From: a virus
DNA: 46,474 bases
Strand: one strand, 5' to 3'
Virus record (IMG/VR): IMGVR_UViG_3300009034_000069
Location: 1 to 46,474 of that record
Part shown: positions 7,098 through 27,444 of the stretch, one piece after another
How the letters are laid out: the number at the start of each line of letters is the position of its first letter
Numbering within the stretch: the stretch's first letter is position 1
Translations under genes and position numbers: made by a program
The notes under the pieces: model-generated
Database searches by the model: none
The model's input: only the letters and a program-made list of their open reading frames with translations
What the model was told of the DNA's origin: nothing

Positions 7098-7112
7098 GAA
7101 GAAAGGTGTGAG

Positions 7113-8492
7113 ATGATTAGAAAGTTTTTGATTACTCTTGTGCTGCTTGTATTGTATCCACTTGCTGCTTCGGCGGTGGTAATTCCGCTCTACGACCCTT
7201 ATGCGATACATCAGGACGGCTCGGACGCTCTGACGGCGAATTGGGACGCCGGAGCTTACGAGATAGAGAGTGATAGCTTTACAGACGGCACAGCCACATT
7301 AACAGGCGGTGACCTTACAGGATTGACCTCGATAACAATGAGTACCAGTGGAAACTTCTACCCATCTTCCATTGATAGCTATACTTATTTTGATTATTCT
7401 GTAAGTTTAGACGCATTTCGTTTTTATGGTAAAAACGCAGCCGGTGATGGTTCAGACCTTCTTTTGGCTCTTAATCGTGATAAAGCGGATTTTCAAGCAA
7501 TAGATATTGAAACAACAGGAGACGTTTCCAGCGAGACACATACCTTTACCGGAGCTTCGAGTCAGGACTGGAAATTCTTGGATGTTGGAACACAATCATT
7601 AGGTTTGCAAAGCCAAACAGCCGCAACGAGCGGTAGCTTTAAGCTCTTTACCTATGACGGTGATGCTACCGACCCTCTTACGTTTCAATTATATGGCAAA
7701 GGGACTCCAAGCCAGTTGACGGATACAGAAACAATATATATGGGCTGGTCATCGGCTGACTCTGCCTTTGTTATTAGGTCACTCAAAGCTGGAAGTGGAG
7801 ATGCTCAACAGATAATCCTTTACACAGAATCCAACACCAACCAGCTTTACTTGGACACGGACGGACAAGTAGGAATAGGAAAAGTCCCCACAGCAGCTCT
7901 TGATGTAACAGGCGCTATAACATCCGATGGGACAATCACAGGCGTAACTCTCACAGATGACACGGCTTCTATAACCGGCGGGGCTATCACCGGCGTAACT
8001 ACCCTTGATGCTGATGAAGTTTATAACAGCGCTGGCAACTTAAAGATAGAACCTGATGTGCAGGGTGAAGTAATCTTATTTGGTGATACAGATATAGGTG
8101 ATACTACTGATGGCAAGAGCTTATATGTTTATAGAATGGCCGCCGAGGGCGATGCTTTCTTTAGAGTCTATGTTGACCAATACAGAAGAGTGCTTCTCTA
8201 TAGCTCAAGAGATTGTATATTCTTCTCCTCGAACACAACTGACATAAGCTTTTATTCCACAAGCAACGTAAGAGCGCATTTGGGAGACGCTGCGGGTGCT
8301 AAAGAGTTTTACGTTGAAGATAGTGCAAACGCTAAACAGTTTTCGGTTGATAGTGATGGAAATACGGACGCTGTGGGAGATTTTACAGCAGGGACAATTC
8401 AGGCAGATAATGGTTTTACTGGCAGTTGGGTAAATGCCGAAGGAGATACTGTTACTGTCGTAGGCGGAGTTATTACAGGAGTTGCACCATAA
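7113..8492 (+). CDS. Tail-fibre-like protein with N-terminal signal peptide, 459 aa
   Basis: Residues 1-20 (MIRKFLITLVLLVLYPLAAS) form a textbook Sec signal peptide, with probable cleavage after ASA. The rest is Gly/Thr/Asp-rich beta repeats such as TATLTGGDLTGLTSITMSTS and DGTITGVTLTDDTASITGG, characteristic of fibre or spike shafts and common in metagenomic phage tail proteins. AAAGGTGT before ATG supports the start. The stop and the next start overlap (TAATG). A signal peptide is unusual for a virion protein, which normally assembles in the cytoplasm. Receptor-binding is inference. Confidence 0.75.
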   Translation: MIRKFLITLVLLVLYPLAASAVVIPLYDPYAIHQDGSDALTANWDAGAYEIESDSFTDGTATLTGGDLTGLTSITMSTSGNFYPSSIDSYTYFDYSVSLDAFRFYGKNAAGDGSDLLLALNRDKADFQAIDIETTGDVSSETHTFTGASSQDWKFLDVGTQSLGLQSQTAATSGSFKLFTYDGDATDPLTFQLYGKGTPSQLTDTETIYMGWSSADSAFVIRSLKAGSGDAQQIILYTESNTNQLYLDTDGQVGIGKVPTAALDVTGAITSDGTITGVTLTDDTASITGGAITGVTTLDADEVYNSAGNLKIEPDVQGEVILFGDTDIGDTTDGKSLYVYRMAAEGDAFFRVYVDQYRRVLLYSSRDCIFFSSNTTDISFYSTSNVRAHLGDAAGAKEFYVEDSANAKQFSVDSDGNTDAVGDFTAGTIQADNGFTGSWVNAEGDTVTVVGGVITGVAP

Positions 8493-8752
8493 TGGCGAAT
8501 GAAATAAAAGTAATCTATCTGACAGGTAAGTCTCTTACTTGCAAAGTTTACTATGACAACAGCGGAGTAATGACTTTAAGAGATAATGTTGGAGCTTTAA
8601 CTGAAGAGCCTGTGGCGAGCCTGCTTTACAAAGGTACTTCTCGTTTTATTCAAGCCGGTGATATTGTCGTTGTTCTCGAAGGAACTACCTTAATCGGCGG
8701 TAGTGAGTATAGACCGTATCAAACTATAAAATTTATTAAGGATGGAGTATAA
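8492..8752 (+). CDS. Small appendage-associated protein, 86 aa
   Basis: A beta-rich 86-residue protein (MANEIKVIYLTGKSLTCKVY) with a Gly-rich C-terminal segment. It is coupled to the fibre-like gene by a TAATG overlap and followed immediately by the collagen-like gene. The start of the protein (conversion of a string such as YLTGKSLTC into a beta-domain) resembles small baseplate/tip or chaperone-like proteins in metagenomic phages, but I cannot name a family. Confidence 0.6.
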   Translation: MANEIKVIYLTGKSLTCKVYYDNSGVMTLRDNVGALTEEPVASLLYKGTSRFIQAGDIVVVLEGTTLIGGSEYRPYQTIKFIKDGV

Positions 8753-8753
8753 A

Positions 8754-9371
8754 ATGGGTAATTTTGGTCAAAAAATTGATAAAGCGTTGGCAAAAGAGAT
8801 TGCCCAAGAGCTTATAAAAGGTATCGTCTTCAGAAAAGATGGCATGTTCCTTGCCGGGAAACAGATAAAGGTTGTGTCCCAAGGTGACTCCGGCCCAAGA
8901 GGTTCTGATGGCAAAGATGGTAAAGACGGTTATACACCGATAAAAGGCAAAGACTACTTTGATGGAGAAGACGGCAAAGATGGTGCGCCCGGTGTAGATG
9001 GAGTCAACGGTGCAGATGGTGAGGACGGTATAGGTGGTAGAAATGGGACAAATGGAGAGAAAGGTGAGAAGGGAGACAAAGGAGATAATGGCCGAGATGG
9101 TATAGATGGTCAGGATGGTATAGATGGCCATACTCCTGTCAAGGGTATAGATTACTTTGACGGCAAAGATGGTATAGATGGTAAGAAAGGAGACAAAGGT
9201 GATACCGGACAGCCCGGCCAAGATGGTAAAGACGGCCAGAGTATTCAGGGCTATCCCGGACAAAAAGGAGACAAGGGCGACCCCGGAGTTCCTCCTCACG
9301 AATTGGGCTATATTATGAGTAAGCTGGCAGAATATGAAGACAGACTTAAAAAACTTGAAGGTATAAGCTGA
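8754..9371 (+). CDS. Collagen-like (Gly-X-Y) repeat protein, 205 aa
   Basis: After a 40-residue N-terminal helix (IDKALAKEIAQELIKG), residues 45-180 are Gly-X-Y triplets such as GKDGKDG, GEKGEKGDKGD and GQPGQDGKDG. A unit TPIKGKDYFDG / TPVKGIDYFDG occurs twice. The C-terminus is a coiled-coil-like helix (LAEYEDRLKKLE). Such phage collagen-like proteins form triple-helical fibre stalks. ATG at 8754 is chosen over 8742 because GGAG lies seven bases before it. It overlaps the portal start (TGATG). Confidence 0.85.
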   Translation: MGNFGQKIDKALAKEIAQELIKGIVFRKDGMFLAGKQIKVVSQGDSGPRGSDGKDGKDGYTPIKGKDYFDGEDGKDGAPGVDGVNGADGEDGIGGRNGTNGEKGEKGDKGDNGRDGIDGQDGIDGHTPVKGIDYFDGKDGIDGKKGDKGDTGQPGQDGKDGQSIQGYPGQKGDKGDPGVPPHELGYIMSKLAEYEDRLKKLEGIS

Positions 9372-10996
9372 TGCCAACAGCAGAAGAAATAATTGCGAGA
9401 CAAGAGCGATTTGAGGCCGACAGAAGCAATTTTGATACTTTATATCAGGATTGTGCAGACTGGGCTTTACCGGGCGATAATCAAATTCTCCGCAGGGAAG
9501 CCGAGGGGACTAAAAAGACTGATACTTTCCAATCTTTAGGAGAGGACTGTATAATCCAACTTGCTGCCGGTCTTTACTCATATATGTTTCCAACGGACAG
9601 TAAAGCTTACGTTCTTAGAATAGACGATGAGGAGCTTGCTGAAAATGATGATGTGAAAAACTGGCTTGATAAAGTCACTATCCTATCACACAAACATCTC
9701 GTTCAAAGCAACTTCAGACAGGGGTTTTTTGAATATCTGAAACAGCTTGCTGCCTTTGGAACAGGTTGCCAGTATGAAGAGAAAGGCAAAAAACAACCTC
9801 TCAACTTTGTTTGTTATCATATAGCGGGTATCTATATATCTCTTGACTCTGACAGAAACGTGGATACTGTCTACCGAGCTTGTGAATTTACAGCACGACA
9901 AGCTGTTCAAGAATTTGGCAAAAATAAACTCCACGAAGACATCTTAAATGCTTATAATAGCCCGAAGAATAAAGAGAAAAGATTCAAATTTATACATGCT
10001 GTTTTCCCGCGAGAAGAGGTTGAGGACAAGAGTGACCCCCTGACGATGCCTGTCGCCAGCATATATGTAGACAGAGTACATAAAGTAATTGTTTCCGAGG
10101 GTGGCTATCCTGAAATGCCTTACCAAGTATCTTTCTTCGATAGGGATGCCTTAGAAACTTACGGTCGTAGTCCTACGATGAAAAAGCTACCAGATATTAA
10201 AATGCTTGGCACGATGAAAAAAACTCGTATAAAAGGCTGGGAAAAGATGTGTGACCCGCCTGTAGTTCTGCCTGATGACGGCTCTATCTGGCCTCTGGCA
10301 ACCCAGCCGGGTGGTGTTCTTTATAAAAGAGCTGGTGGTGAAGACCCAACTTGGTTCGAGTTCAAAGGCAACCTCCAAGGTATGCAGGAGGCTATAGCAG
10401 AGACGATAGCTGATATTCGTGCTGGCTACTTTCTTGACCTCTTTGATGCTTTGATAGATAGACAAAATATGACTGCTACTGAAGTGATGGCCAGAGTGGA
10501 GCAGAAGATGAGACTTCTAACACCTATCGTTGGTCGTCTACAGTCGAGTTATTTTAATCCTATGATACACAGGATAATTGGCATATTAGGCCGAGCCGGT
10601 AAGTTACCGCCTATTCCTGAACAACTTGCAGGCAAAGAATACCGGATTGAGTATCTTGGTCGTCTTGCTCTTGCTCTCAAAACTTTAGAAACTGAAGGTT
10701 TTGTTAAGACGATGGCTGAAATAGCTCCACTAATCGAAGCCGGTAGAATGGATTTGTTAGATAACTATGAGCTTGATATTGCTTGTCGTGATATAAGCAG
10801 GAACAACGGTGCGCCAGCTACTTGGCTTAAAGATATTGAAAAACGTGATGCAGAAAGACAGCAAAGAGCGCAGCAAGCTCAAGCTGCTGCTATCGCAGAA
10901 CGGCTGCCTGATGTATCGAAAGCAGTAAAGAACGTGTCGCAGAAACCAGAAGCAGGTTCAATAGCTGAAAGGGTATTAAGTGAAACAGCCGCTTAA
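9371..10996 (+). CDS. Portal / head-to-tail connector protein, gp8-like, 541 aa
   Basis: It begins PTAEEIIARQERFEADRSNF and includes DCADWALPGD. The middle has the MKKLPDIKMLGTMKKT region, followed by GDYF-like FLDLF...MTATEVMARVEQKM, and it ends in an Ala/Gln-rich helical tail. This is the Bacteriophage head-to-tail connecting protein family typical of T7-like phages. The length is normal. It would form the dodecameric vertex through which DNA enters and leaves. It is followed by the usual scaffold and capsid genes. Confidence 0.92.
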   Translation: MPTAEEIIARQERFEADRSNFDTLYQDCADWALPGDNQILRREAEGTKKTDTFQSLGEDCIIQLAAGLYSYMFPTDSKAYVLRIDDEELAENDDVKNWLDKVTILSHKHLVQSNFRQGFFEYLKQLAAFGTGCQYEEKGKKQPLNFVCYHIAGIYISLDSDRNVDTVYRACEFTARQAVQEFGKNKLHEDILNAYNSPKNKEKRFKFIHAVFPREEVEDKSDPLTMPVASIYVDRVHKVIVSEGGYPEMPYQVSFFDRDALETYGRSPTMKKLPDIKMLGTMKKTRIKGWEKMCDPPVVLPDDGSIWPLATQPGGVLYKRAGGEDPTWFEFKGNLQGMQEAIAETIADIRAGYFLDLFDALIDRQNMTATEVMARVEQKMRLLTPIVGRLQSSYFNPMIHRIIGILGRAGKLPPIPEQLAGKEYRIEYLGRLALALKTLETEGFVKTMAEIAPLIEAGRMDLLDNYELDIACRDISRNNGAPATWLKDIEKRDAERQQRAQQAQAAAIAERLPDVSKAVKNVSQKPEAGSIAERVLSETAA

Positions 10997-11240
10997 TGAA
11001 GAACAGAAAGAAGAAGTATCGCGCAGGATTACGAGGTCTGCTACTTTTCAGAGAGTTTTTAGGGGCTTGGATGGTGAATTTGTCCTTGCTGAACTGGAGA
11101 AACAGCTTCGAGGCTTTGACCCTGACCCTTATGTTAATGCTTATAACTGCGGTGTAAGGGATATTCTTAATTTTATTACTACTGTGCTTGAAGCTGATGT
11201 AGAAAAAGCAAGAGAGGTGTTAGATGCCAAGACCCCGTAA
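10980..11240 (+). CDS. Bbp19-like small phage protein, 86 aa
   Basis: The pattern RSATFQRVFRGLDGEFVLAELEK then DPYVNAYNCGVRDILNFI matches small Bbp19-like proteins encoded next to podovirus connectors. The start is GTG at 10980, supported by GAAAGGG six bases upstream. The portal gene overlaps it by 17 bases. Function in the family is unknown; position suggests a head-completion or assembly role. Confidence 0.7.
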   Translation: MKQPLNEEQKEEVSRRITRSATFQRVFRGLDGEFVLAELEKQLRGFDPDPYVNAYNCGVRDILNFITTVLEADVEKAREVLDAKTP

Positions 11241-11367
11241 AGAAGAAAAGCAGAGTAGTTATGTCTCTCGATGTATAAGCCAGTCAAGACACGAAGGATA
11301 TAGTCAAAAAGCAGCTGTAGGACGCTGCTACGGTATGTATCGTTACTATAAGAAAAAAGGAAAATAA
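11224..11367 (+). CDS. Small conserved phage protein (VSRCI...GYSQKAA motif), 47 aa
   Basis: A 47-residue basic protein: MPRPRKEEKQSSYVSRCISQ, then EGYSQKAAVGRCYGMYR. The VSRCI-x7-EGY-x-QKAA-x3-C-Y layout matches a short motif found in many phages, alone or at the ends of portal/head proteins, near the scaffold gene. It overlaps the previous gene by 17 bases. Two conserved cysteines could bind metal. Function unknown. Confidence 0.65.
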   Translation: MPRPRKEEKQSSYVSRCISQSRHEGYSQKAAVGRCYGMYRYYKKKGK

Positions 11368-11393
11368 AGTTTATTTAGTGAAAGGAAAGTAAA

Positions 11394-12278
11394 ATGGCTG
11401 AACCCGGAAACCCTGAAAATGGCTCGGATAACTCAGACCAAGGTAATGTAGGTGTTGTAAATGCTGATGGCAGTTTTGTTGAAAACTGGGCAGAAAAGTA
11501 TTCTGAAGAAGACCGTGCTACACTATCAAGATTCAAAAAATTTGATGATTTTGTGACTTCCCACATGAGTCTGAGACGCAAGTTCAACAAAGACCCGGAC
11601 ACCCTTGTCGAACTGCCTTCTGAGACTTCGTCAGACGAGGTCAAAGCGGAGTTCCATCGCAGAAGAGGTGTGCCTGAGAAGGCTGAAGAGTATAAGTATG
11701 AGCGAAGCAAAGAGCTATCGGACAACATCGAAATGGATGATGAAAAGATAGCTGCCTTCTCTCAGATAGCCAAGAAGCACAACTTTACTCAGGCGCAGTT
11801 TAATGGTGTTGTGAATGACTACCTTGCTCTTGTGGATAAGGACATTACCAATTTTGATGTTATACAAGAGGAAAAAAATGAACAAGAGCGTGAGAAAGGT
11901 GTTGCCGTTCTCAAAAAAGTGCTTGGCAATGCTCTTGAAGAGCGAACTCTGAGAGCGGAAGCAGTAATGAGGAAATATGGCGATATAGTAGTTAAAGATG
12001 CCAAAGGAAACGAGTTTAATGTCTTGGAGCAGTTACACGAAGAGTTGCCCAACATTAAAAATTCACCTTGGATAAGACTTCTGCTTGACAACATCGCTGA
12101 AGATATGAGTGAGGACAGGATAAAAGGACTTACAGCTGTAACTACTCCTACACCGAGTGATGTAATCAAGAAGATTGCTGAACTGAAGGCACATCCAGCA
12201 TTTATGGATAGAACTCATCCGCAGCACGCAGAAGTTGTTGATGAATTAAGCGAACTGTATAAAAAGAAGTCAGCATAA
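11394..12278 (+). CDS. Scaffolding protein, gp9-like, 294 aa
   Basis: It is located between the connector and major capsid genes and is highly acidic and helical. The N-terminus is disordered (NPENGSDNSDQGNVGVVNAD) and is followed by WAEKYSEEDRATLSRFKKFD, which resembles the start of many podovirus scaffold proteins. It ends in a charged helix with PSDVIKKIAELKAHPAFMDR, a capsid-binding type C-terminus. The protein would guide procapsid assembly and leave before or during packaging. GAAAGGAAAG precedes ATG. Confidence 0.82.
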   Translation: MAEPGNPENGSDNSDQGNVGVVNADGSFVENWAEKYSEEDRATLSRFKKFDDFVTSHMSLRRKFNKDPDTLVELPSETSSDEVKAEFHRRRGVPEKAEEYKYERSKELSDNIEMDDEKIAAFSQIAKKHNFTQAQFNGVVNDYLALVDKDITNFDVIQEEKNEQEREKGVAVLKKVLGNALEERTLRAEAVMRKYGDIVVKDAKGNEFNVLEQLHEELPNIKNSPWIRLLLDNIAEDMSEDRIKGLTAVTTPTPSDVIKKIAELKAHPAFMDRTHPQHAEVVDELSELYKKKSA

Positions 12279-12282
12279 CCTC

Positions 12283-12416
12283 TTAATAGAGTCGCTGTGC
12301 TAACCTGAAAGGCGGGTCGTCAGACCAGACGATAAACAGGAAGGAAAGCTCCGAAAGGTTAACCTTTCCGAAGTGAGTAACAGAACTTTACTAACTTTAT
12401 TGGAAAGGAAACTATT
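12283..12416 (+). promoter_or_regulatory. Structured leader of the major capsid gene
   Basis: This 138-bp gap holds TCGTC-AGACCA-GACGA (12317-12332), a small hairpin, and the 16-bp perfect palindrome GAAAGGTTAACCTTTC (12353-12368). A strong GGAAAGGAAA ribosome-binding site follows before ATG 12417. No U-tract follows, so I favour an mRNA processing/stability or promoter element. The palindrome alone could also be a protein-binding site. Confidence 0.45.
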
Positions 12417-13379
12417 ATGAGTATAACTTTAACAGGAGGCATACCAACGTGGTTTGTCGACCAATTTTCTGAAACCTTGTATCATGTGTGTCAGCAGAAA
12501 GAGTCCAAGTTTGCTCAAGCTGTGAGAGTTGAAGCCGTTCTTAGTGCTGAAGACAAGTCCTTCGATATGATGGATGAGTTTACTCTGACTGAAAAGGCAG
12601 AGCGAAACCCTGACACTCCAACCATTGACCCCTCTACTCAGAGACGTTGGGTTGAAACTACGCCATATCACAACGCAGTTCTCTACGACCAAGACGATGA
12701 CCTGTCAATGATTATCGACCCCACCAGTGACTTTGTTACTGCGTTCCGCAGAGCGGTCAATCGTCAAAAGGATGACATCATCTATGCCGCTTTTGAGGCA
12801 GCCACAACCAGCGGTCGCAGGGCTGGTAGCTCAATTACTTGGGCATCTCAAAATGGTAACGTCAAGTATACTGGAGCAGATACTGGAAGAACTATCGCTC
12901 ACGACACCTCTTCAGGTAATGCTTCTGCGACTGACACTGGTATGACAGTTGAGAAAATCCAGCTTGCTCTTGAATACTTTGCCCACAATGACGTAGATGA
13001 GGACATTCCCAGATGGTGTGCAATTTCACCTCGTCAGGCAACCAACATGTTCGGTCAAGAGGAGTATATCAACATTGATTACAACACGCAGAAGCCTCAC
13101 GCTGTTGGACGCATCATTCGGGATTGGTTTGGCATGAACTGGATTGTTAGCAATGATGTTGTTGTCGGTTCAAACAATGACGTTGATGGTGATACTGCTG
13201 TCTTTGAGTGCTGGTGTTGGGCGCAGGATGCTATCATCCTCGGTGTCCAAGATGCCGTGAGCGTCAAGATTTCAGACAGGGCTGACAAATCCCACGCTCA
13301 GCAAGTCTATGTTCACATGAACATGGGTGCAATGAGAATGGACGAAGACAAGGTTGTAAAAATTGAGTGTCAGGCGTAA
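12417..13379 (+). CDS. Major capsid protein, 320 aa
   Basis: It starts SITLTGGIPTWFVDQFSETL and VCQQKESKFAQAV. Later segments such as RRWVETTPYHNAVLYDQDDD, TAFRRAVNRQKDDIIYAAFE and CAISPRQATNMF match the Phage_capsid_2-type HK97-fold capsid proteins of podoviruses without gp10 similarity. The position directly after the scaffold gene and the strong Shine-Dalgarno support it. Length is normal. Structured RNA elements lie before and after the gene, consistent with high and separate expression. Confidence 0.9.
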   Translation: MSITLTGGIPTWFVDQFSETLYHVCQQKESKFAQAVRVEAVLSAEDKSFDMMDEFTLTEKAERNPDTPTIDPSTQRRWVETTPYHNAVLYDQDDDLSMIIDPTSDFVTAFRRAVNRQKDDIIYAAFEAATTSGRRAGSSITWASQNGNVKYTGADTGRTIAHDTSSGNASATDTGMTVEKIQLALEYFAHNDVDEDIPRWCAISPRQATNMFGQEEYINIDYNTQKPHAVGRIIRDWFGMNWIVSNDVVVGSNNDVDGDTAVFECWCWAQDAIILGVQDAVSVKISDRADKSHAQQVYVHMNMGAMRMDEDKVVKIECQA

Positions 13380-13401
13380 GTCTGATGAAACTTGAAATGT
13401 T

Positions 13402-13440
13402 AATGCCCAGCGGTTAATCCGTTTGCCGGTTAAGGGCATT
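13402..13440 (+). promoter_or_regulatory. Hairpin after the major capsid gene
   Basis: AATGCCC (13402-13408) pairs with GGGCATT (13434-13440), enclosing a second small stem (CGG/CCG). No U-run follows, so it may act as a 3' stability element for capsid mRNA or a weak terminator instead of a full terminator. It ends 34 bp before the next gene. Confidence 0.5.
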
Positions 13441-13474
13441 GTAGTGAAAGCTACGAATTTCTTAGGAGAATAAG

Positions 13475-14266
13475 ATGAGTTATTCAAATTATGACCACAC
13501 ATATCGTAGAAACAGAATTGTCGAGCCATCACAGCTTCTGGCTGCTGAGGACATTTTCCATCCACACGCTACTCAGAAGTATATGCTTGGTGCTATTCTC
13601 GACTTGAACGATGGCCGCAGGTTTCGCTATTGTGAAGAAGATGGCACTGGTCTGGCTTTTGGCTATATGACTCAGGCAGTTGCAGGAACGGCAAACTGGC
13701 AGCTTCAAGCGCAGACAAATGGCCGTATCTGGTCAGTAGGAGATGAGTCCATTGTAGTAACTCTCGCTGCTACAGTGGCAGCCCACGACCTTCGTAATGG
13801 TTATCTTCTTACTGAGGACGGAACTGGTGAAGGTCAGTTGTATATGATTAAGGACAACGATGTTGGCACTTCCAATGCTACATCTGGTTATGATGTCAGA
13901 TTGTACCTTGCTGATGCAGGAGGTATTCGTGTACTAACAGCTACGTCTCTCGAAGTTACAGTTGTCAAAAACAAATACAAAGACGTTTGCCTCTTCAAAA
14001 CAAACCAGACAGGTGTTGCAACTGGTGTTGCTCTTGCTACAGTTACTGCCAACTACTTCTTCTGGGCGCAGACAAGAGGCCCTTGTCCGATGGTGCAAGA
14101 TGACACAGACCAGCCCGTTGTTGGCGATTATGCTTGTCAGTCAGACAGCGCCGCAGGAACAGCTGCCGTACCAGCGGCTATTGCTGATGATATAATCTTT
14201 GGCACTGTTCTGCATGCTGCTGCAACTGCTGGTGACTACTGCATTGTTGATTTAGCTATCGAGTAA
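13475..14266 (+). CDS. Putative capsid decoration / head protein, 263 aa
   Basis: It follows the major capsid gene and is beta-rich. It starts YSNYDHTYRRNRIVEPSQLL and contains MLGAILDLNDGRRFRYCEED and GYMTQAVAGTANWQLQAQ, a layout seen in capsid-adjacent proteins of uncultured podoviruses. It ends in an Ala-rich stretch and DYCIVDLAIE. AGGAG precedes ATG. A capsid decoration or minor head role is inferred from position. A terminator-like hairpin follows. Confidence 0.65.
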   Translation: MSYSNYDHTYRRNRIVEPSQLLAAEDIFHPHATQKYMLGAILDLNDGRRFRYCEEDGTGLAFGYMTQAVAGTANWQLQAQTNGRIWSVGDESIVVTLAATVAAHDLRNGYLLTEDGTGEGQLYMIKDNDVGTSNATSGYDVRLYLADAGGIRVLTATSLEVTVVKNKYKDVCLFKTNQTGVATGVALATVTANYFFWAQTRGPCPMVQDDTDQPVVGDYACQSDSAAGTAAVPAAIADDIIFGTVLHAAATAGDYCIVDLAIE

Positions 14267-14288
14267 AATTCTGCCATAGTTGAGTTCG

Positions 14289-14330
14289 GGGAGGCTGTAA
14301 CGGGCAGCCTCCCACTTTTGAAACTTTTTT
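14289..14330 (+). terminator. Intrinsic terminator-like hairpin after decoration gene
   Basis: GGGAGGCTG (14289-14297) pairs perfectly with CAGCCTCCC (14305-14313), leaving a 7-nt loop. ACTTTTGAAACTTTTTT follows, so the 3' tract is U-rich but interrupted. This is a likely partial terminator, letting some transcription continue into the downstream genes. Confidence 0.75.
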
Positions 14331-14345
14331 AGAAAGGTGAAAGAA

Positions 14346-15839
14346 ATGAAAAAAATACTTATTCCATTATTAGCCTTGTTGCTGCTACTTTGTATACCCA
14401 TGCCTTCACACGCAAGGAAGGTAACAGGTCTGTACCAAGAGCGCATAGGTAACTTTACTGGCCCTATTACAGGCTCTGCTCAAGATGACAACATCAAGGC
14501 ATCCCTTGACTTGGCTCATACCGACCTTGATGCATTGATAGTCACTGTGGATGACACTCTTTCTTGTCTCAAGGTTGCCAACAGTGTATGGTATGTTGAC
14601 AGCGGTGTTGCCGGTTCTGCCGGAACTACTTGGGCGACAGCAGTAGCTACCATTGATGATGCAGTAAATCTTGCCACTGCCGATGTTGGAGACATTATTT
14701 TTGTCGCTCCGGGCCACGCAGAGAACTTAGGCACGACCGACCCCGATGTTGACAAAGCAGGTCTTACAATCATTGGCCTTGGTGTTGGTGAACAGCGTGC
14801 GGTTCTCAGCTCTGATACAAGCACGGACATCTTTACGATTGATGCTGATGATGTTGCCGTCTACAACTTGGTGTTTCTCGCTCATACTCCCGATGTTGCC
14901 AAAGGTATTGACATTACAGCCGGTTCGGAAAATGCGATAATTCAGGACTGCTTGTTCACTGTGCATACCGAGGCAACAGATGAGTTTCTAATTTGTATCA
15001 ACATCGGCGCAGCCTCCGACAACCCTCTTATTAAGAACAACGAGTTCTTTATGGGTGGTGGTAATGCTACAGAAGCTATCTTGCAGGATGGCACACTTGA
15101 GTATGCTGAAATCGTTGGCAATAAGATTTATGGTGATTACAGTACAGCGTGCATTTATGGTGATAGCACAGGTGCGGGTGAGATGCTTACAATTAGAGAT
15201 AATATCCTCTACAACGGTGACATTACGATTGGCCTGAACACCGAACCGTGTATTGAATTGAAGTCTGATACTACAGGGTTTATTGTCAACAATCAGATTG
15301 CCTGTAATGTAGCTGAACCATCGGACTCCATAGTTGCTGCTGACTGCTATCTCTGGGGTAACAAGTATACCGAAACCGAAGGCATTGCCGGAAACTTGGA
15401 CATTGGCTTGGAAATGGGCAAAACTTATGCTCAGGTAATGACTGGTGCATCGGTCGCGGCCAGCGCTGACGATTTGTTTATTGTAGCTGGCGGGCCTATC
15501 CTGATTACGGACTTCTTTGGAATATGTACTACTGCTATGTCTGGTAATCCGGGTGACATGAAGATTTGGTGTGATGCCACCACAGCCGACCAAGACAGGG
15601 ATTTCAGCACTACTGTCACGATTGATACATTGGCAGTAGGTGATAGCGTAAGATTCACTAACGCTATTGATGAAGGTGTTCTTGATTTCACTGCCAATAT
15701 GGGTGCAGGCCAGCGTTTAAGTTGGATATGTCCTATTGGTACGATTGAGCAATCTGTTACATCTACCGGTACAGGTGTAGTGTCTTGGTATATGGTATTT
15801 ATACCACTGGGGCCTAACGTCACAGTAGCATCACAGTAA
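14346..15839 (+). CDS. Beta-helix (pectate-lyase-like) protein with signal peptide, 497 aa
   Basis: The N-terminus MKKILIPLLALLLLLCIPMP then SHA is a strong Sec signal peptide. Residues 80-330 have the alternating strand pattern of right-handed parallel beta-helices (VWYVDSGVAGSAGTTWATA, then GLTIIGLG, IIQDCLF, NPLIKNNEFF, YAEIVGNKIY, MLTIRDNILYN). The C-terminal third is a separate beta domain. ATG 14346 is chosen over an upstream GTG because AAAGGTG lies six bases before it. It sits in the capsid-tail block, so it is probably a surface spike or decoration protein; enzymatic activity is unproven. Confidence 0.75.
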   Translation: MKKILIPLLALLLLLCIPMPSHARKVTGLYQERIGNFTGPITGSAQDDNIKASLDLAHTDLDALIVTVDDTLSCLKVANSVWYVDSGVAGSAGTTWATAVATIDDAVNLATADVGDIIFVAPGHAENLGTTDPDVDKAGLTIIGLGVGEQRAVLSSDTSTDIFTIDADDVAVYNLVFLAHTPDVAKGIDITAGSENAIIQDCLFTVHTEATDEFLICINIGAASDNPLIKNNEFFMGGGNATEAILQDGTLEYAEIVGNKIYGDYSTACIYGDSTGAGEMLTIRDNILYNGDITIGLNTEPCIELKSDTTGFIVNNQIACNVAEPSDSIVAADCYLWGNKYTETEGIAGNLDIGLEMGKTYAQVMTGASVAASADDLFIVAGGPILITDFFGICTTAMSGNPGDMKIWCDATTADQDRDFSTTVTIDTLAVGDSVRFTNAIDEGVLDFTANMGAGQRLSWICPIGTIEQSVTSTGTGVVSWYMVFIPLGPNVTVASQ

Positions 15840-15846
15840 GACTAAT

Positions 15847-15880
15847 GGGGTGGTCGCATTTTGCGGCTACCCCTTACTTT
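15847..15880 (+). terminator. Terminator-like hairpin before tail tubular A
   Basis: GGGGTGGTCGCA (15847-15858) pairs with TGCGGCTACCCC (15862-15873) over 12 bp with two G-U pairs and a TTT loop; TTACTTTT follows. The next gene's ribosome-binding site (AAGGAAGG) begins right after it, so it may be an attenuator separating abundant head proteins from tail proteins. Confidence 0.7.
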
Positions 15881-15895
15881 TAAGGAAGGCATATT

Positions 15896-16651
15896 ATGTC
15901 AATGACCGAAAATGCGGCTAATATTGCCCTATGCAATCAAGCTCTTGGCTTGCTTGGAGCGGAAGCAATAGTATTAAGTGGCTCGTCTACGAACCATACT
16001 TACTGTACAACCTTTTTTGATGATTGTAGAGACGAGATACTTGAGGGCCATCCTTGGAACTGGGGTAGGAAACGTGCCTATGCCATTCAGACTACAGACC
16101 CGCTCTTTGGTTATGACAATGCTTTCACTGTTCCATCCGATTGTCTTCGCATCTTGAAAGTGGCTGATGACCCTGCTGCTGAGTGGCGCAGAGAAGGTGA
16201 TTTGATAATTACAGATGAAGGTGAAGACCCGCCTGATTGGGTGACTGCTACAGATTACTTAGCTGGTCAGTACATCTCTTCTGACGACTCAGGTAGCGAC
16301 TTAACCTACTTGGTTGATACGGCCTTCACCTCAAGTACCGAGACAACTGACCTATCTTCGTACTGCACTTCACAGGGAGACGACTACGAAACTCTTGAAG
16401 TAGAATATATCTATCAAGTTACTGATGTGTCTACATATCCAAAATATCTACGGTGGTGTGTGGTACTCAATCTGGCTTCTAAATTGGCCTCACCAATCAA
16501 ACAGGACACTAAGGCAATGTTGAATTTTCAAACTGCACTTTATGGTAGTCGGGAAGTAATAGGATATATGTCTTTGGCTCGGTCGTATGATGCACAGGAA
16601 AGCGGCGGTGTGAAAATCAAGACCGAGACGTGGATTGATGCAAGAGACTAA
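15896..16651 (+). CDS. Tail tubular protein A (gp11-like adaptor), 251 aa
   Basis: It begins with ANIALCNQALGLLGAEAIV and continues CRDEILEGHPWNWGRKRA, the standard opening of T7 gp11-type tail tubular A proteins (LN.AL..IG...I followed by ALR..PWNFA). The rest, including YIYQVTDVSTYPKYLRWCVV, fits. These proteins form the 12-subunit ring joining portal to nozzle. It is longer than T7 gp11 by roughly 50 residues. The Shine-Dalgarno is AAGGAAGG. Confidence 0.88.
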   Translation: MSMTENAANIALCNQALGLLGAEAIVLSGSSTNHTYCTTFFDDCRDEILEGHPWNWGRKRAYAIQTTDPLFGYDNAFTVPSDCLRILKVADDPAAEWRREGDLIITDEGEDPPDWVTATDYLAGQYISSDDSGSDLTYLVDTAFTSSTETTDLSSYCTSQGDDYETLEVEYIYQVTDVSTYPKYLRWCVVLNLASKLASPIKQDTKAMLNFQTALYGSREVIGYMSLARSYDAQESGGVKIKTETWIDARD

Positions 16652-16652
16652 A

Positions 16653-19600
16653 ATGAGAAAAGCTATTATACTTATTCTATTATTGTTGTGTTCATTAGCA
16701 TTGGCACAGCAGGAGAAACCCTACAGGATACTTAACTCCTTTAGTGCAGGGGAGTTAAGCGAACTTCTGTTGGCTCGTGAAGACCTCTCCAAATATCATT
16801 CCGGTTGTTCTGTAATGGAGAATATGATACCTCTGCCTCAAGGCGGAGCGCAGAAGAGGCCGGGGACTGTCTACGTTGCAGAGTCCAAGAACAACACCAA
16901 AATACGCCTGCTTCCTTTCGAGTACTCTACTGAGCAATCATATATCATTGAGCTTGGTAATCAGTATGCTCGTTTTTACACCAATAATGCTGTAATATAT
17001 GAGACCTACGGTACAGAGGATTTATCAGGTATTGGTAGTATTGTTGCTCATTGGAAGTGTGACGATAATGCAGCGACCACAGCGGTTGTTGACGATGATG
17101 GTGCAACACATAACGGCGTAGCAAACGCCAATACAAATACATTTACAACTACCAATGCCGAAGGCACAGCCAACTCAGCCTTCGATTTGGGCGGCACTGC
17201 GATTGTTTCAATAGCCGACCACGCGGACTTCACTTTCGGTGATGGCTCAAACGACAGTCCCTTTAGTTTGATGGCTTGGGTCTACGTCACAGCAACAGCG
17301 AGCAAGCAGGGCATTATCAACAAGTGGGGAGGTGATGAAAAAGAGTGGGCCTTGGCCTTGACAAGTACGGAGACGATTGAGTTTAGGGTATATGACGAGA
17401 GCGCGAACAAAGAAGCTAAAACAACAACTAACAACTCCTTCTCGGCAGGATGGCATTTCGTGGTGACAACATATAACGGTTTGGGTGGCGCTTCTGCTGC
17501 AGATGGAATGAAGATTTATGTAGACTGGGTGGAAGAAGAGACCACAAAAACTAACGATGCCAGTTATGTTGCGATGGAGGACAAGGGTAGTCCTTCTTAT
17601 ATAGGTGCTGATGAGGGTGGAAGTTACAAATGGCAGGACAAAATAGATAATGTAGCTGTTTTTAACAAAGAGCTTACGGCAGTTGAGGTTGCTTCTCTGA
17701 CAGGCGCTGCCTCTACAACTGTTTATGAAATTGCAACACCATATCTTACTGCTGACCTGTTTGAATTAAAGTTTGAACAATCTGCTGATGTTTTATATGT
17801 AGTGCATCCTGATTACGAAACGAGAAAGCTGTCCCGGTTGGCTAATGCCATATGGTCTTTAGAAGCTTACGCTACAGAGACAGGCCCGTTCAGAGACCAG
17901 AATACGGATACTAATGCCAAAATAGCCGCATCAGCAACAACAGGCTCAGTAACTCTTACTGCTACCGGATGCGCGCCTTTTGTATCCGGCACTACAGCAG
18001 GCCATTTACCGAGCGGTTCTGCAACAACTTCTAAAAGTCAAACGGGTGCTTTATTTAGATTAGTACATCCTCTTACCAATTTGGAGCATACCACCGAATT
18101 GGATGACAACTACACAAATGACCCGACTGAGAATGTAAGCTGGCTTGACTGTGCAACGCTCTACAAAGGAGATACATGGTATCTTACAACATTAGGAACA
18201 TGGACAGGCGTACTTGAATTGCAAAGGAATTATACTGTCGGAGCTGCTCACAATGCCTCTGGTTGGGAAAAGGTTTTTGCTTTTGCCAGCACAGACGACA
18301 GAAATGTTGATACAAGTGGTACTGAAACTTTAGCCGATGCCTCTTATCGAGCTATCCTCACTCAATCAGGTGATGCAGCAGAACAATGTAAGGTATATTT
18401 TAGAAGCAATGCTACAGACCATATTGGTATTGTTGAGATTACGGCGGTTGCAAGCACAACCTCTGCTACTGCAACTGTATTAACTACACTTGGCTCAACA
18501 GATGCTACACATAAATGGTCTGAAGGCTCTTGGTCTAACTACCGAGGCTGGCCTCGCACAGTTACCTTCTTTGAAGACCGCCTGACTTTTGGAGGAAATG
18601 CCGGACAGCCTGACACCATCTGGGCTTCTGTAACTGCTGACTATGAAAATATGTTGGCAGGTGCAGAAGACGATGATGCCTTGAACTTTACTCTCTCCTC
18701 AAGGCAGGTCAATGTCATCGAGTGGCTAATCGGAAAAGATAAAATCTTAATTGGCACTTCTGGTGCTGAATGGACTTTAGGCGGTTCAGCTGATGAACCT
18801 CTTACACCATCGAATGTAAAAGCTGAACAGCACTCTACTTATGGCAGTGCAGGCCTGCAAGCTACATTAGCGAGTGAGAGTGTCTTGTTCTTCCAGCGAG
18901 GCGCTAAGAAGATGAGAGAGCTGGCTTATAACTGGGAGCTTGATTCTTATGTTGCTCCTGATATGACAATTCTCGTTCCCGAAGTCACCGGAGACGGCAT
19001 TACAGATACTGCCTTTCAGAAAACACCAAACTCAATTCTCTGGTGTATTAAAGACAATGGTGATATAGCAATATTTGTCTACGAGCGCAAAGAACAGATT
19101 ACTTCTTGGTCACGGCTTATCACAGATGATGACTTTGAATCTGTCGCGGTTATCACTGGAGACCCGGAAGATGAAGTCTGGGTATCGGTCAAGAGAACTA
19201 TTGGCGGTGCTGACCAAAGATATATTGAATACTTTTCAGACAGAGACTTCGGCACAGATGTAACTGATGCCTTCTATGTTGACTCCGGCATTACTGACAC
19301 TGGAGGCTCTACCACTGTTTCAGGTCTTGACCACTTGGAAGGTGAAGATGTAATCGTTCTCGGTGATGGAGTAGTGCAGACAGAAGCTACTGCAGGTGAC
19401 TTTACGGTATCAGGCGGAGATATTACGGTAGCGTCAGGACTTACTACCGTACAAGCCGGTTTGCCTTACACTGTCCAGATGAAGACGATGCCGTTAAGCT
19501 GGGTGGCAGCTGGTATGACGATTCAGGGCCGTATCAAAAGAATAAACGAAGTCATAGCTCAATATTATGACAGTGGTGACTTCGATATAGGTAAAGACAC

Positions 19601-19760
19601 AACTGACAAGAAAACTTTAAGTGTTTCCGGTATGGCAACTGATAGTGGAAGGATGACTTTTCCAGCGGGTTATGACAGGCCGGGCTACGTCTTTATCTAT
19701 CAGCAGTCACCTGAGCCTTTAACTTTAATAGCTTTAATGATAGAGTTTATGGTGTATTGA
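16653..19760 (+). CDS. Tail tubular protein B (gp12-like nozzle) with signal peptide and LamG-like insertion, 1035 aa
   Basis: The core matches tail tubular B: RILNSFSAGELSELLLARED then KYHSGC and PLPQGGAQKRPG at the N-terminus; FELKFEQSADVLYVVHPDYE after the insert; later WPRTVTFFEDRLTFGG and SSRQVNVIEWLIG. Two oddities stand out. First, residues 1-19 (MRKAIILILLLLCSLALAQ) are a signal peptide placed directly before the conserved start. Second, about residues 123-355 form a LamG/concanavalin-like domain (IVAHWKCDDN, FSLMAWVYVT, WHFVVTTYNG, DNVAVFNKELTAVEVASL) inserted between NNAVIYE and VYEIATPY. No strong Shine-Dalgarno was seen before ATG 16653. Confidence 0.88.
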   Translation: MRKAIILILLLLCSLALAQQEKPYRILNSFSAGELSELLLAREDLSKYHSGCSVMENMIPLPQGGAQKRPGTVYVAESKNNTKIRLLPFEYSTEQSYIIELGNQYARFYTNNAVIYETYGTEDLSGIGSIVAHWKCDDNAATTAVVDDDGATHNGVANANTNTFTTTNAEGTANSAFDLGGTAIVSIADHADFTFGDGSNDSPFSLMAWVYVTATASKQGIINKWGGDEKEWALALTSTETIEFRVYDESANKEAKTTTNNSFSAGWHFVVTTYNGLGGASAADGMKIYVDWVEEETTKTNDASYVAMEDKGSPSYIGADEGGSYKWQDKIDNVAVFNKELTAVEVASLTGAASTTVYEIATPYLTADLFELKFEQSADVLYVVHPDYETRKLSRLANAIWSLEAYATETGPFRDQNTDTNAKIAASATTGSVTLTATGCAPFVSGTTAGHLPSGSATTSKSQTGALFRLVHPLTNLEHTTELDDNYTNDPTENVSWLDCATLYKGDTWYLTTLGTWTGVLELQRNYTVGAAHNASGWEKVFAFASTDDRNVDTSGTETLADASYRAILTQSGDAAEQCKVYFRSNATDHIGIVEITAVASTTSATATVLTTLGSTDATHKWSEGSWSNYRGWPRTVTFFEDRLTFGGNAGQPDTIWASVTADYENMLAGAEDDDALNFTLSSRQVNVIEWLIGKDKILIGTSGAEWTLGGSADEPLTPSNVKAEQHSTYGSAGLQATLASESVLFFQRGAKKMRELAYNWELDSYVAPDMTILVPEVTGDGITDTAFQKTPNSILWCIKDNGDIAIFVYERKEQITSWSRLITDDDFESVAVITGDPEDEVWVSVKRTIGGADQRYIEYFSDRDFGTDVTDAFYVDSGITDTGGSTTVSGLDHLEGEDVIVLGDGVVQTEATAGDFTVSGGDITVASGLTTVQAGLPYTVQMKTMPLSWVAAGMTIQGRIKRINEVIAQYYDSGDFDIGKDTTDKKTLSVSGMATDSGRMTFPAGYDRPGYVFIYQQSPEPLTLIALMIEFMVY

Positions 19761-19762
19761 AG

Positions 19763-20197
19763 ATGGCTGTCTACATTAGACCGTTTGAAAAGAGTGATTT
19801 AGATGCCTTTGTGCCTATAGAGCCAATGGCTCAAGATAGAGAGTTCGACTCCGAATTGGCACAGGCAGTAGAGGACTCCGGCCTTTCTGTCACTGGCATC
19901 AGAAATGGTGAGATAGTAGGCTGTGGCGGTGTCCACCCTCTAAATGACCTTCAGGGCGAGCTTTGGCTGCGACTGAGTACAAATTGTCTTCAGCATAAGA
20001 TGGATACCTTGAGATGGATAAAGGAAGGCTTGGCAATTATAGAAGAAATTTATCCTTTTAAGCAGCTAAATGCAGTAATAAGATGTGACTTCAAGAAAGG
20101 CATAAAGCTGGTTAAGTTCTTGGGCTTCCACGAGACTGAAACCAAGACTCACGAAGGCAAAAAGTGGTCTATATTCTCTAAGAGAGTGAAAGAATGA
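19763..20197 (+). CDS. Internal virion protein A / GNAT-fold protein (gp13-like), 144 aa
   Basis: A GNAT acetyltransferase-like fold: YIRPFEKSDLDAFVPIE at the N-terminus, GEIVGCGGVHPL as the strand pair and LVKFLGFHETE at the C-terminus. In T7-like phages such proteins occupy the gp13 position just before the internal core proteins and may have lost catalysis. ATG at 19763 lies right after the tail gene's stop. It overlaps the next gene by ATGA. Confidence 0.75.
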   Translation: MAVYIRPFEKSDLDAFVPIEPMAQDREFDSELAQAVEDSGLSVTGIRNGEIVGCGGVHPLNDLQGELWLRLSTNCLQHKMDTLRWIKEGLAIIEEIYPFKQLNAVIRCDFKKGIKLVKFLGFHETETKTHEGKKWSIFSKRVKE

Positions 20198-20712
20198 CAG
20201 GAGCAGAAATAGCACTTATAGCTATGGCCGTAGGTACTGGTGTACAAGCTTACGCACAATATCAGGCTGGCAAGTCTGCAGCAGCACAGGCCAAGGCTGA
20301 AGCAGCTTGGCACGCCTATAATGCAAAAGTATCTCTGAGAGAGGCTGAAGCAGAACGCCAAGCCGCTGCCTTTGAAGCCCAGCAGCAAAAAAGAAAAGGC
20401 AAACAGATACAAGCACGTCTTAGAGCTGCAGTCGGAAAAGCCGGTGTTACTATGGAAGGCTCACCTCTTCTGGTTGCTGAAGATACAGCTGCTGAATTGG
20501 CTCTTGAAAACGCTATGATTAGAATGACCGGAGCAAGAAGAGTTGCCAGATGGAAGTCTCAGTCCATTCTTGACATCTCTAAGGCTTCTATGGCAAAGAC
20601 CAGAGCTGAAAGCGCTGAACGAGCTGGCATATTAGGTGCTGGAACTTCTCTGCTGACCGGAGCAGCTCAAACAGGATATATGGGTTATGAAATGGGTGTG
20701 TGGGGCAAATGA
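20194..20712 (+). CDS. Internal virion protein B (gp14-like), 172 aa
   Basis: It starts with a hydrophobic helix (TGAEIALIAMAVGTGVQAYA) followed by YQAGKSAAAQAKAEAAWHAY and a long Ala/Gln/Arg helix, then GVTMEGSPLLVAEDTAAELA. This arrangement is characteristic of gp14-type ejection proteins, which insert into the host outer membrane to form the genome-delivery channel. The position between gp13-like and gp15-like genes agrees. Both ends overlap neighbours by ATGA. Confidence 0.82.
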   Translation: MTGAEIALIAMAVGTGVQAYAQYQAGKSAAAQAKAEAAWHAYNAKVSLREAEAERQAAAFEAQQQKRKGKQIQARLRAAVGKAGVTMEGSPLLVAEDTAAELALENAMIRMTGARRVARWKSQSILDISKASMAKTRAESAERAGILGAGTSLLTGAAQTGYMGYEMGVWGK

Positions 20713-22289
20713 AATTACCAAGATATACAGCTAAAGTAGGACCGCCGAGATTTGCCGGAGCTGCAAGAGCCACCGATATAGGCGCTCTTACCAGAACAGG
20801 TGAGGTTGAAGTCTGGAGAGGTGTCAGCCAACTCGGTGGAGGTATGAAAGACGTGTCAAACCTGATGTTTCGTGTTCAGCAAGACCGCCAAGCTATAGAT
20901 GCTCGTCTTCAACATAATCGTGTCAGTAGTAGTATGGCTGAATACGCAAACGAACTTGACAGGTCTTTGGAGGAGCAGGTAGTTACGAGCAAAAAACACC
21001 GTGATGACTTACAACAGGCTAATATGGCTTTATATGATAAGGAGTTCCAGAACCAGCTCAAGACAGTTGACAACCATAAGGCTCTGCAGGCTTTGAAGAT
21101 AAGCCAGTATGAAAGTAAGGCAAGAGCTTCCACTCAGATATATAATAAACTGACTGCTAACTATGACAGGTATCAGGTTAATGCAGGTCTTGAGGAGGTC
21201 AACAAACAGATTGCTGCTGGCAATGCCGAGGAAGCTATAGAGCAAATTGAGTTTATGGTTGCGCACAAGCAGCTTACGCCAATTCAGGGAGATTCACGCA
21301 TAAAGGCCGTGCCTAAACTGATAAGGATAGCAAGAAGAGATGCTGCTGAAGAAATGGCAAAAGCAATTCTTGTAAAAGATGGTTTACCTGCCGCACAGGC
21401 GTTTGTAGCTTCTCTTCCTACAGATATAGTTCCGATAGATGACCAAGCGAAAATTATCACTGGTCTTGAAAGCATAGCCAAGGTTATGAGGAGACAGATA
21501 GGTCTGGAGGTGGAAGCCAACAACAAAGCCGCTGTCATAGACCTGTTTGGAAGACTTGGTGATTTTACCGCTTGGCCAACTGAGAAGGAAATAAGAGACA
21601 GTACAGCTCTTCTTGAAAAGGAGTCTTGGAGGGAAATAGTCGTTGGCTTAGGAAATGAAGAAGAGCCTGAAACCGACTATAAAGATTTTATAGATTTCGA
21701 GACGAAGCTCTTCGACCGTTGGAGAGGTCTGGACAGGTCTGTAGACAGAACAGGAAAAGAACCAGTAGAGTCAGAAGTTCTGCTTGAAACCGAGATAGCC
21801 TCTTTCCGTCACACGGAGAGAAAAATAAACGACCAAGATATGAAAGAGCTTACACGCCGTCTTGGTCTTAGTCTTGGAAGATATACAGATGATGTTGAAA
21901 GCGCTTTTGAAGAAATCAGGAAGATGGGTAAAGTCAGCCCCGGAATCATAGGTGTAACACTGGGAGCTTTATATTTGAGTCAATCTGAAGCTAAGAATAT
22001 TGCTACAGCTCGCAAGAATCTGCTCGATTGGGTAATAGAACAATCTGCCAAAGGCGTGGATATAAAATCAAGCAAAATAACTGAGATGGCGCGAGAGTTT
22101 ATTGTAAGTACCAGAAGTGCTAAACCTGCCATAGAAGTTCCTAAAGAAGTTCCTGAAGAAGCTCCAGCAGAACCTCCTACTATACTTCGGAGTTACCTCC
22201 ATCCTGTTATAACAGATGAAGATTATGAGAAAGTGCCTTCTGGAGCATTTTACAGAGACCCGGAAGGAGTTCTTAGGAAGAAACGATAA
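20709..22289 (+). CDS. Internal core protein (gp15-like ejection protein), 526 aa
   Basis: It begins MKLPRYTAKVGPPRFAGAAR, then GALTRTGE, an opening shared by gp15-type proteins of T7-like metagenomic phages. Nearly all the rest is predicted helix with long charged segments. It would form the periplasmic part of the ejection conduit. ATG at 20709 overlaps the gp14-like stop (ATGA); an earlier in-frame start is unlikely. The C-terminus has a Pro/Glu-rich linker (EVPKEVPEEAPAEPPT). Confidence 0.78.
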   Translation: MKLPRYTAKVGPPRFAGAARATDIGALTRTGEVEVWRGVSQLGGGMKDVSNLMFRVQQDRQAIDARLQHNRVSSSMAEYANELDRSLEEQVVTSKKHRDDLQQANMALYDKEFQNQLKTVDNHKALQALKISQYESKARASTQIYNKLTANYDRYQVNAGLEEVNKQIAAGNAEEAIEQIEFMVAHKQLTPIQGDSRIKAVPKLIRIARRDAAEEMAKAILVKDGLPAAQAFVASLPTDIVPIDDQAKIITGLESIAKVMRRQIGLEVEANNKAAVIDLFGRLGDFTAWPTEKEIRDSTALLEKESWREIVVGLGNEEEPETDYKDFIDFETKLFDRWRGLDRSVDRTGKEPVESEVLLETEIASFRHTERKINDQDMKELTRRLGLSLGRYTDDVESAFEEIRKMGKVSPGIIGVTLGALYLSQSEAKNIATARKNLLDWVIEQSAKGVDIKSSKITEMAREFIVSTRSAKPAIEVPKEVPEEAPAEPPTILRSYLHPVITDEDYEKVPSGAFYRDPEGVLRKKR

Positions 22290-26512: not shown

Positions 26513-26514
26513 TT

Positions 26515-26835: not shown

Positions 26836-26847
26836 AAGGAGGTTAAA

Positions 26848-27060
26848 ATGGAAACTAAATCTTGGTGGCAGAGTAAAACAATTCTTGCCGGAATTGTTGT
26901 AGCAGTATGCAGTTTGCTTGGTCTCTTTGGTGTGGGCGAAGCAGAAAATATTGCCAGTGAAGCTGCGCCGATTGCAGAAACAATTATTGAGATTATAGCT
27001 TTAATCGGCGGGATTGTAGCCATTGTCGGTCGTATTGTGGCTGAAAAGAAAGTTGTCTAA
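26848..27060 (+). CDS. Putative holin, 70 aa
   Basis: A short protein with two hydrophobic segments: residues 9-27 (KTILAGIVVAVCSLLGLFG) and 44-62 (IIEIIALIGGIVAIVGRIV), with a basic end. The opening SWWQSKT is common in small phage holins. AAAGGAGG lies seven bases before ATG. The next gene, an i-spanin, overlaps its stop. It would form the membrane lesion that times lysis; the topology is inferred. Confidence 0.7.
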   Translation: METKSWWQSKTILAGIVVAVCSLLGLFGVGEAENIASEAAPIAETIIEIIALIGGIVAIVGRIVAEKKVV

Positions 27061-27344
27061 TGAATACTACCATAGCTGTTGTAGTTGCTCTTGGTTCTAT
27101 AGCTGCTCTTGCTCTATGGCTGTTCAAACGCTTCTATGGCAGCAAGGCAGACTTGAAAAAATTAGTCAAGTTACAGGAGAGAGTAGATGAAATTACAAAA
27201 GAGATGGCTGATATGCTTGCTCGTAAGCGCACTTATAGTTACAAGCGCTATGATAAGCTTAACTCTGAGCGGATGCAACTCAACCGAAGAATCAAACGCC
27301 TCAAAGATATACTGGGGTCTAAACGAAATCCCTTTGGACTGTAA
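27060..27344 (+). CDS. i-spanin (Rz-like), 94 aa
   Basis: The N-terminal membrane anchor TIAVVVALGSIAALALWLF (residues 3-21) is followed by a basic coiled-coil periplasmic domain (LQERVDEITKEMADMLA, LNSERMQLNRRIKRLK). This is the inner-membrane spanin layout. The o-spanin gene (27187-27444) begins inside it in the +1 frame. Together they would fuse inner and outer membranes at the last step of lysis. Location after the holin and before the cassette terminator agrees. Confidence 0.78.
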   Translation: MNTTIAVVVALGSIAALALWLFKRFYGSKADLKKLVKLQERVDEITKEMADMLARKRTYSYKRYDKLNSERMQLNRRIKRLKDILGSKRNPFGL

Positions 27345-27444
27345 CGATGTTGCTCCGTTTCCGGGTGTGCTTATGTATATTTGGAGATATGAGTATCTTT
27401 TAAGATGTGAAAACTATGTTCTTCAAGCAGGAGTTGAGCCATAA
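27187..27444 (+). CDS. o-spanin (Rz1-like lipoprotein), nested in another frame, 85 aa
   Basis: A lipoprotein signal KLQKRWLICLLVSALIVTSA ends in the lipobox LSGC (Cys at residue 30). The mature part is a 55-residue periplasmic segment. ACAGGAGAG provides an ideal Shine-Dalgarno six to eight bases before ATG 27187, within the i-spanin gene. The first 158 nt overlap the i-spanin reading frame at +1; the rest extends beyond it. This is the classic Rz/Rz1 overlapped arrangement and implies a host with an outer membrane. Confidence 0.82.
   Translation: MKLQKRWLICLLVSALIVTSAMISLTLSGCNSTEESNASKIYWGLNEIPLDCNDVAPFPGVLMYIWRYEYLLRCENYVLQAGVEP

Follow-up and report, generated by a model that had tools for sequence, protein, structure and literature searches.

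Predicted Sec signal peptides on the tail nozzle, spike and fibre-like proteins of an epsilon15/Carin1-type podovirus and their distribution among its relatives

The stretch of DNA analysed here, called the window, is one IMG/VR virus contig of about 46,475 bases, and the virus is a podovirus of the epsilon15/Carin1 type. No near DNA match to it was found. The podovirus structural block occupies the left half of the window, from the terminase through three large internal virion genes (Table 1), in the order terminase, fibre-like genes, portal, scaffold-region, major capsid protein (MCP), cement-slot, beta-helix, tail A, nozzle, GNAT-like and internal genes. Both epsilon15 and Carin1 have this order, and in the Carin1 record the cement, head-spike base, connector and nozzle genes, arranged as in the window, are marked as structurally validated. 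Gene order is alike throughout the epsilon15/BPP-1/Carin1-type podoviruses (nozzle phrog_376, portal PF12236, MCP PF19821), the part in common with the epsilon15/Carin1 type being portal-scaffold-MCP-cement-(spike)-adaptor-nozzle-GNAT-ejection proteins, with a homologous nozzle.

Table 1 Features of the window that bear on the predicted signal peptides (SP)
Feature	Position	Strand	Remarks
Predicted Sec SP of fibre-like protein (21 aa, ASA/V)	7113..7175	+	
Mature fibre-like protein, 438 aa	7176..8492	+	No PHROG/Pfam match
Collagen-like protein, without SP	8742..9371	+	
Portal, without SP	9371..10996	+	PF12236
Scaffold/protease-region protein, without SP	11394..12278	+	phrog_3742
Major capsid protein, without SP	12417..13379	+	PF19821
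Cement-slot protein, without SP	13475..14266	+	
Predicted Sec SP of spike (23 aa, SHA/R)	14346..14414	+	
Mature spike	14415..15839	+	Slot of the Carin1 head-spike base protein
Tail A adaptor/connector, without SP	15896..16651	+	phrog_394
Predicted Sec SP of tail nozzle (18 aa, ALA/Q)	16653..16706	+	ATG one base past tail A stop
Mature tail nozzle	16707..19760	+	phrog_376 from residue 26; homologous to 8ck1, 9efk
GNAT-like protein, epsilon15 gp13 slot, without SP	19757..20197	+	
Three internal (ejection-type) virion genes, without SP	20194..26512	+	Starts 20194, 20700, 22289
Holin-like protein, 70 aa, two membrane segments	26848..27060	+	Sequence inspection
Rz-like inner-membrane spanin	27060..27344	+	Weak match to phrog_739
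Lipoprotein (LSGC), Rz1-like outer-membrane spanin, nested out of frame in Rz-like gene	27187..27444	+	Sequence inspection

Judged by sequence, the proteins encoded at 7113, 14346 and 16653 begin with textbook signal peptides of the Sec/signal peptidase I (SPase I) type. An earlier note had pointed them out, with starts and N-termini that proved correct to the residue. Up to the predicted cleavage sites the N-termini read MIRKFLITLVLLVLYPLAASA (followed by VV), MKKILIPLLALLLLLCIPMPSHA (followed by RK) and MRKAIILILLLLCSLALA (followed by QQ), respectively. In all three the n-region is +2, with K or R among the first four residues, the core is uncharged and hydrophobic, and A/S-x-A stands at -3/-1 (ASA, SHA and ALA); none of them has a lipobox (Cys at +1, SPase II). 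In-frame alternative starts lie upstream of two of the genes (GTG 14337, TTG 16635, ATG 16638), and since they merely lengthen the n-region, the result is independent of the choice of start.

Signals were scored with a rule-based detector that looks for a positive n-region, an uncharged 10-residue core and small residues at -3/-1. Applied to two stretches of E. coli K-12, each of 50 kb, the detector was positive for 11 of 15 known exported proteins, chosen by name, and for 0 of 49 cytosolic proteins. The mean Kyte-Doolittle value over the 10 core residues was 3.4-3.7 for the window proteins, compared to 2.3-3.1 for the E. coli examples. Among genes of at least 150 aa, 54 of 243 (22 %) were signal-bearing in related contigs with the feature, compared to 6 of 463 (1.3 %) in nozzle relatives without it. 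The signal-coding DNA was equally alike within and between genomes (0.42 in both cases). Recent copying of one signal module between genes was thereby ruled out.

The protein encoded at 16653 is a tail nozzle. It belongs to PHROG 376 and is a homologue of the Carin1 nozzle, the structure of which is solved. It matches the phrog_376 profile with an E value of 4.9e-182 (residues 26-1033 on profile positions 7-708) and the 8ck1 Tail Nozzle with an E value of 1.5e-94, and its gene, which has a weak Shine-Dalgarno site, directly adjoins that of the tail A adaptor. It is the only nozzle gene in the window, with no signal-free copy, and as the nozzle must join the particle, the signal-bearing protein is a virion protein. 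A LamG-like (PF13385) lectin domain is inserted in it at about 17250-17693; the nozzles of some relatives (L005 and L008, and also the signal-free L003 and L004) seem to have longer, repeated inserts.

In the nozzles of epsilon15, pelagiphage HTVC010P, vir555 and others, Met and about seven residues precede the FxxGE motif, whereas in the same alignment the window nozzle and that of L002 have an extra hydrophobic stretch before this region. The nozzles of epsilon15, Carin1 and the pelagiphage are without a signal peptide, as are the Carin1 slot genes, in contrast to the window nozzle; for BPP-1 the comparison is limited to a match starting at residue 25 of the protein from the window. The distant nozzles start without the hydrophobic segment because it is absent altogether, which indicates that the nozzle signal is an N-terminal extension gained ahead of the normal start of the family.

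Further nozzles were collected by a scan with four signal-bearing nozzles (A3), an initial alignment (A1) being too heterogeneous for this purpose. The scan yielded 80 loci in viruses and 2 in genomes. The genome scan returned only distant, signal-free relatives, in an Elusimicrobia MAG and a beta-proteobacterium MAG. Among the close relatives (about 30 contigs) every nozzle has a hydrophobic SPase I-type N-terminus; when rare starts are allowed, this holds for all clade nozzles with a readable N-terminus. Counted as distinct sequences, 25 of 25 clade nozzles carry the signal, compared to 1 of 32 more distant ones (L086). According to the earlier note, homologues that start after the hydrophobic segment would speak against a signal; in the clade the segment is in frame in all 25.

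Over these 25 nozzles sequence identity is 71 % in the mature region but drops to 43 % in that of the signal peptide. Nevertheless, only 1 of 180 core positions is charged, all 25 proteins have K or R within the first four residues, and nearly all have a small residue at -3 and Ala or Gly at -1. The sequence has diverged and the properties of a signal have been kept, which means that there is selection for a signal. The cleavage picker reported Ala at -1 every time, and the sites of L052, L068 and L070 were set by inspection, the probable ones being A-L-G (L052, L068) and L-Y-G (L070); the site of L062 (AYPQ) is doubtful. The Cys of the frequent LLCS has Leu at -1 and does not make a lipobox. 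A nozzle tree, which rests on about 95 residues, has the 25 clade nozzles on one side and L086 apart, so that by this tree at least two gains of the signal, or one gain with losses, would be needed. The position of L093 in it is meaningless (wrong-frame sequence); the true nozzle start of L093 has no signal.

Five clade nozzles (L002, at about 851, L058, L060, L083 and L100) lack ATG, GTG or TTG at the signal peptide. L002, L058, L083 and L100 have in common GGAGGGG(T/A)TATTATTCGTAAA, which suggests that a strong Shine-Dalgarno site precedes an ATT start conserved among them. In L060 the corresponding triplet is ATA, and L052 may start at ATA too.

The mature spike encoded at 14346 has an anchor-like motif at its N-terminus (IGNFTGPITGSAQDDNIKASLDLAHTDLD), followed by a parallel beta-helix (about 14652-15380) and a C-terminal beta-sandwich (about 15426-15836). 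The beta-helix and the beta-sandwich after it are those of the AlphaFold2 model, with pLDDT mostly 76-93 at residues 101-340, and its best solved structural matches are phage tailspikes, with a low global TM of 0.39 or less. The protein is thus modelled as a tailspike-like beta-helix, a statement at the level of fold class. The domain arrangement resembles that of the tailspike depolymerases Kp32gp38, K2-2 TSP and phi297 gp61; however, the superposition is weak, the window protein is signal-bearing and encoded in the head block, and a depolymerase activity is only putative. The R-K directly after its cleavage site is less than ideal for Sec.

No close relatives of the spike, or of its split domain, were found in the phage isolate collection. 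Among the relatives found, those of L005, L006, L007-L009, L012 and L013 have a signal, and those of L010, L011 and L014 do not; in L010 and L014 it is absent from the nozzle as well. The motif IGxFTGPxxGxAQDDNIKASLD is common to all of them. It directly follows the signal or, in proteins without one, the start Met; only in L012 is it located deeper inside the protein. The spike of L008 is divided between two genes, one for the N-terminal and one for the C-terminal part, and each gene has its own signal. L012 is not a podovirus of the window type, and its signal-bearing spike relative lies 3' of a putative capsid gene. On the minus strand of the same contig (L012:560-4243) lies an ORF of 1227 aa, terminase-like, which looks interrupted by inteins or similar inserts.

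The fibre-like protein encoded at 7113 is the weakest of the three cases. Neither a family match (PHROG, Pfam) nor a signal-bearing homologue was found for it. Its phage relatives, which are signal-less, resemble it over short segments only, and a short NWDAGAYE module occurs both in it and in signal-less phage proteins. The signal reported in the earlier note is present, while the name fibre and the conservation are less secure, the support being one gene of L005, which occupies the same slot before the collagen-like and portal genes and is unrelated, yet signal-bearing.

In the clade as a whole the signals are restricted to outer parts of the virion. None of 127 BLAST-assigned core genes carries one (terminase 0/5, portal 0/14, scaffold 0/20, MCP 0/22, cement 0/22, adaptor 0/26, internal 0/18), and neither does any of the 18 GNAT and collagen-like genes, compared to 31 of 36 spike-type genes. 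When the nozzle has a signal, a second signal-bearing gene is present upstream of it, at a distance of up to 4.5 kb, in all 22 of 22 contigs, compared to 3 of 26 contigs in which the nozzle has none; the nominal p of 8e-11 is too small, since the contigs are related. Several other lineages independently put predicted signals on spikes or fibres. In L086 they are present on the nozzle, on two slot proteins, on a tail fibre of the phrog_1640 type and on a fibre-like protein of 831 aa. L104 has a signal-free nozzle, but its fibre and one slot protein carry signals. The set is not all-or-none, as the L003 contig has a beta-helix protein with a signal and a nozzle without. In L026 (vir555, listed host Methanomicrobiales), a slot protein between cement and adaptor (6884-7396) has a signal-like N-terminus.

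A spanin-type lysis cassette follows the structural block. The nested Rz/Rz1-like pair after the holin-like gene makes a host with an outer membrane most likely, and in such a host exported parts would stay in the periplasm. The lysis block (window 26500-27444) also encodes a 111-aa protein with a C-terminal membrane segment; no endolysin was recognised near it. Further on (window 37616-38168) lies a CsrA-like regulator, followed by a small predicted lipoprotein (LVGC, 37887-38168).

According to the textbook view, tailed phages are completed in the cytoplasm. The earlier note considered the signals hard to square with assembly that is wholly cytoplasmic, and this stands; the signals are real and on separate virion genes. 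The signals are on the parts that are added last and from outside, and none are on the parts that build or fill the head, from which we infer periplasmic staging. The nozzle and the spikes of head or tail, joined in some genomes by fibres, would pass through the Sec translocon of an outer-membrane host. Once signal peptidase I had cut off their signals, the mature proteins would remain in the periplasm. Meanwhile heads with portal, adaptor and ejection proteins would be built and filled with DNA in the cytoplasm, and when the holin opens the inner membrane, the exported parts would join the heads, either ahead of the rupture of the outer membrane by the spanins or while it takes place. We give this reading, i.e. 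export, cleavage, periplasmic staging and addition to filled heads when the inner membrane opens at lysis, a probability of about 50 %. It is put forward rather more tentatively as a two-compartment line, in which the cytoplasm would supply filled heads and the periplasm the matured nozzle, spikes and fibres. The particle would be closed only as the inner membrane opens, and lysis would be the last step of assembly.

The maintained SPase I site and the short core point to export and cleavage rather than anchoring. The cores of the clade nozzles, like those of the window, are more hydrophobic than the E. coli control set. Very hydrophobic cores are expected for SRP-routed co-translational export, and the cores fit this as expected. 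Cysteine content and parity did not differ clearly between nozzles with and without a signal; disulphide formation in the periplasm is not supported as the reason for export, since the exported proteins show neither a clear enrichment of Cys nor a clear preference for even numbers of it. In P22 neck mutants, filled heads leak DNA. By analogy, filled heads without a nozzle may leak, and something else would have to hold the genome; this is the main physical objection to late addition.

Among the other explanations, it is conceivable, although unlikely, that the proteins have two fates, an exported fraction acting outside (receptor or glycan blocking, depolymerase, superinfection exclusion) and a cytoplasmic fraction being built into virions in the ordinary way. 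The modelled tailspike/depolymerase-like fold of the spike and the lectin-like LamG insert of the nozzle would suit this, and a non-ATG start after a Shine-Dalgarno site in several clade nozzles could mean leaky initiation. However, a nozzle signal in every clade member is left unexplained, and an internal ATG start is not conserved, Met being present between signal and FxxGE core in 1 of 25 nozzles. Surface display of fibres, suggested in the earlier note, likewise offers no explanation for the nozzle signal, and its lipid-associated stage found no support. The best fit among its proposals is assembly in or at the envelope, if this is taken to mean that outer parts are exported and added late.

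A further explanation, to which we give still less weight, is that signals with slow or partial cleavage bring nozzle and spikes to the inner membrane, where heads dock and particles are finished, instead of after lysis. The signal-bearing parts would face the envelope side of a docked particle and the cores are very hydrophobic, but an N-in signal carries the mature part across to the periplasmic side, where the head is not, and the cores are too short for stable anchors and keep the SPase I site. It is improbable that the segments stay uncleaved and that virions use them for membrane insertion, an idea of the earlier note, or as fusion peptides, at the nozzle or the spike base. Podovirus tails must act at membranes during ejection and the segments are strongly hydrophobic; however, the cores are short (signal peptides of 14-19 aa), nearly all nozzles keep a small residue at -3 and Ala or Gly at -1, and like segments are also found on spikes whose genes lie among those of the head. 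An origin by chance or from wrong gene starts can practically be dismissed, as the earlier note had held for chance: although a short hydrophobic N-terminus can arise randomly and the window nozzle has a weak Shine-Dalgarno site, the signal is present in 25 of 25 nozzles, recurs on spikes and in other lineages, and occurs at a rate of 22 % compared to 1.3 %.

To our knowledge, export of virion proteins is known from filamentous phages and not from tailed phages. The coat proteins pIII and pVIII of the filamentous phages M13/fd have cleavable Sec signals and join the particle outside the cytoplasm. The window virus would resemble them in having virion proteins with cleavable Sec signals, its export being deduced from sequence; in contrast, M13 has coat proteins anchored in the membrane and leaves the cell by extrusion of the particle, whereas the proteins of the window clade are soluble parts of a tailed dsDNA virion. 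Signal peptides of phages are discussed for lysis proteins in two articles (PMC8951688, PMC9144972). Such proteins (Sec endolysins, SAR endolysins, Rz1 lipoproteins) have the use of host Sec in common with the window clade, but they are not virion proteins, while the clade has SPase I signals on nozzle, spikes and fibres. No earlier report of signals on the nozzle or the spike set was found in open-access text, which does not prove that there is none.

If the proposed reading is true, signals on the outermost, last-added parts mean that these phages have an assembly stage outside the cytoplasm, possibly timed by lysis, and the clade would allow the place and time of tail completion to be tested in a simple way. 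The finding also calls for caution, as signal peptides in phage genes mark more than lysis proteins or cargo genes.
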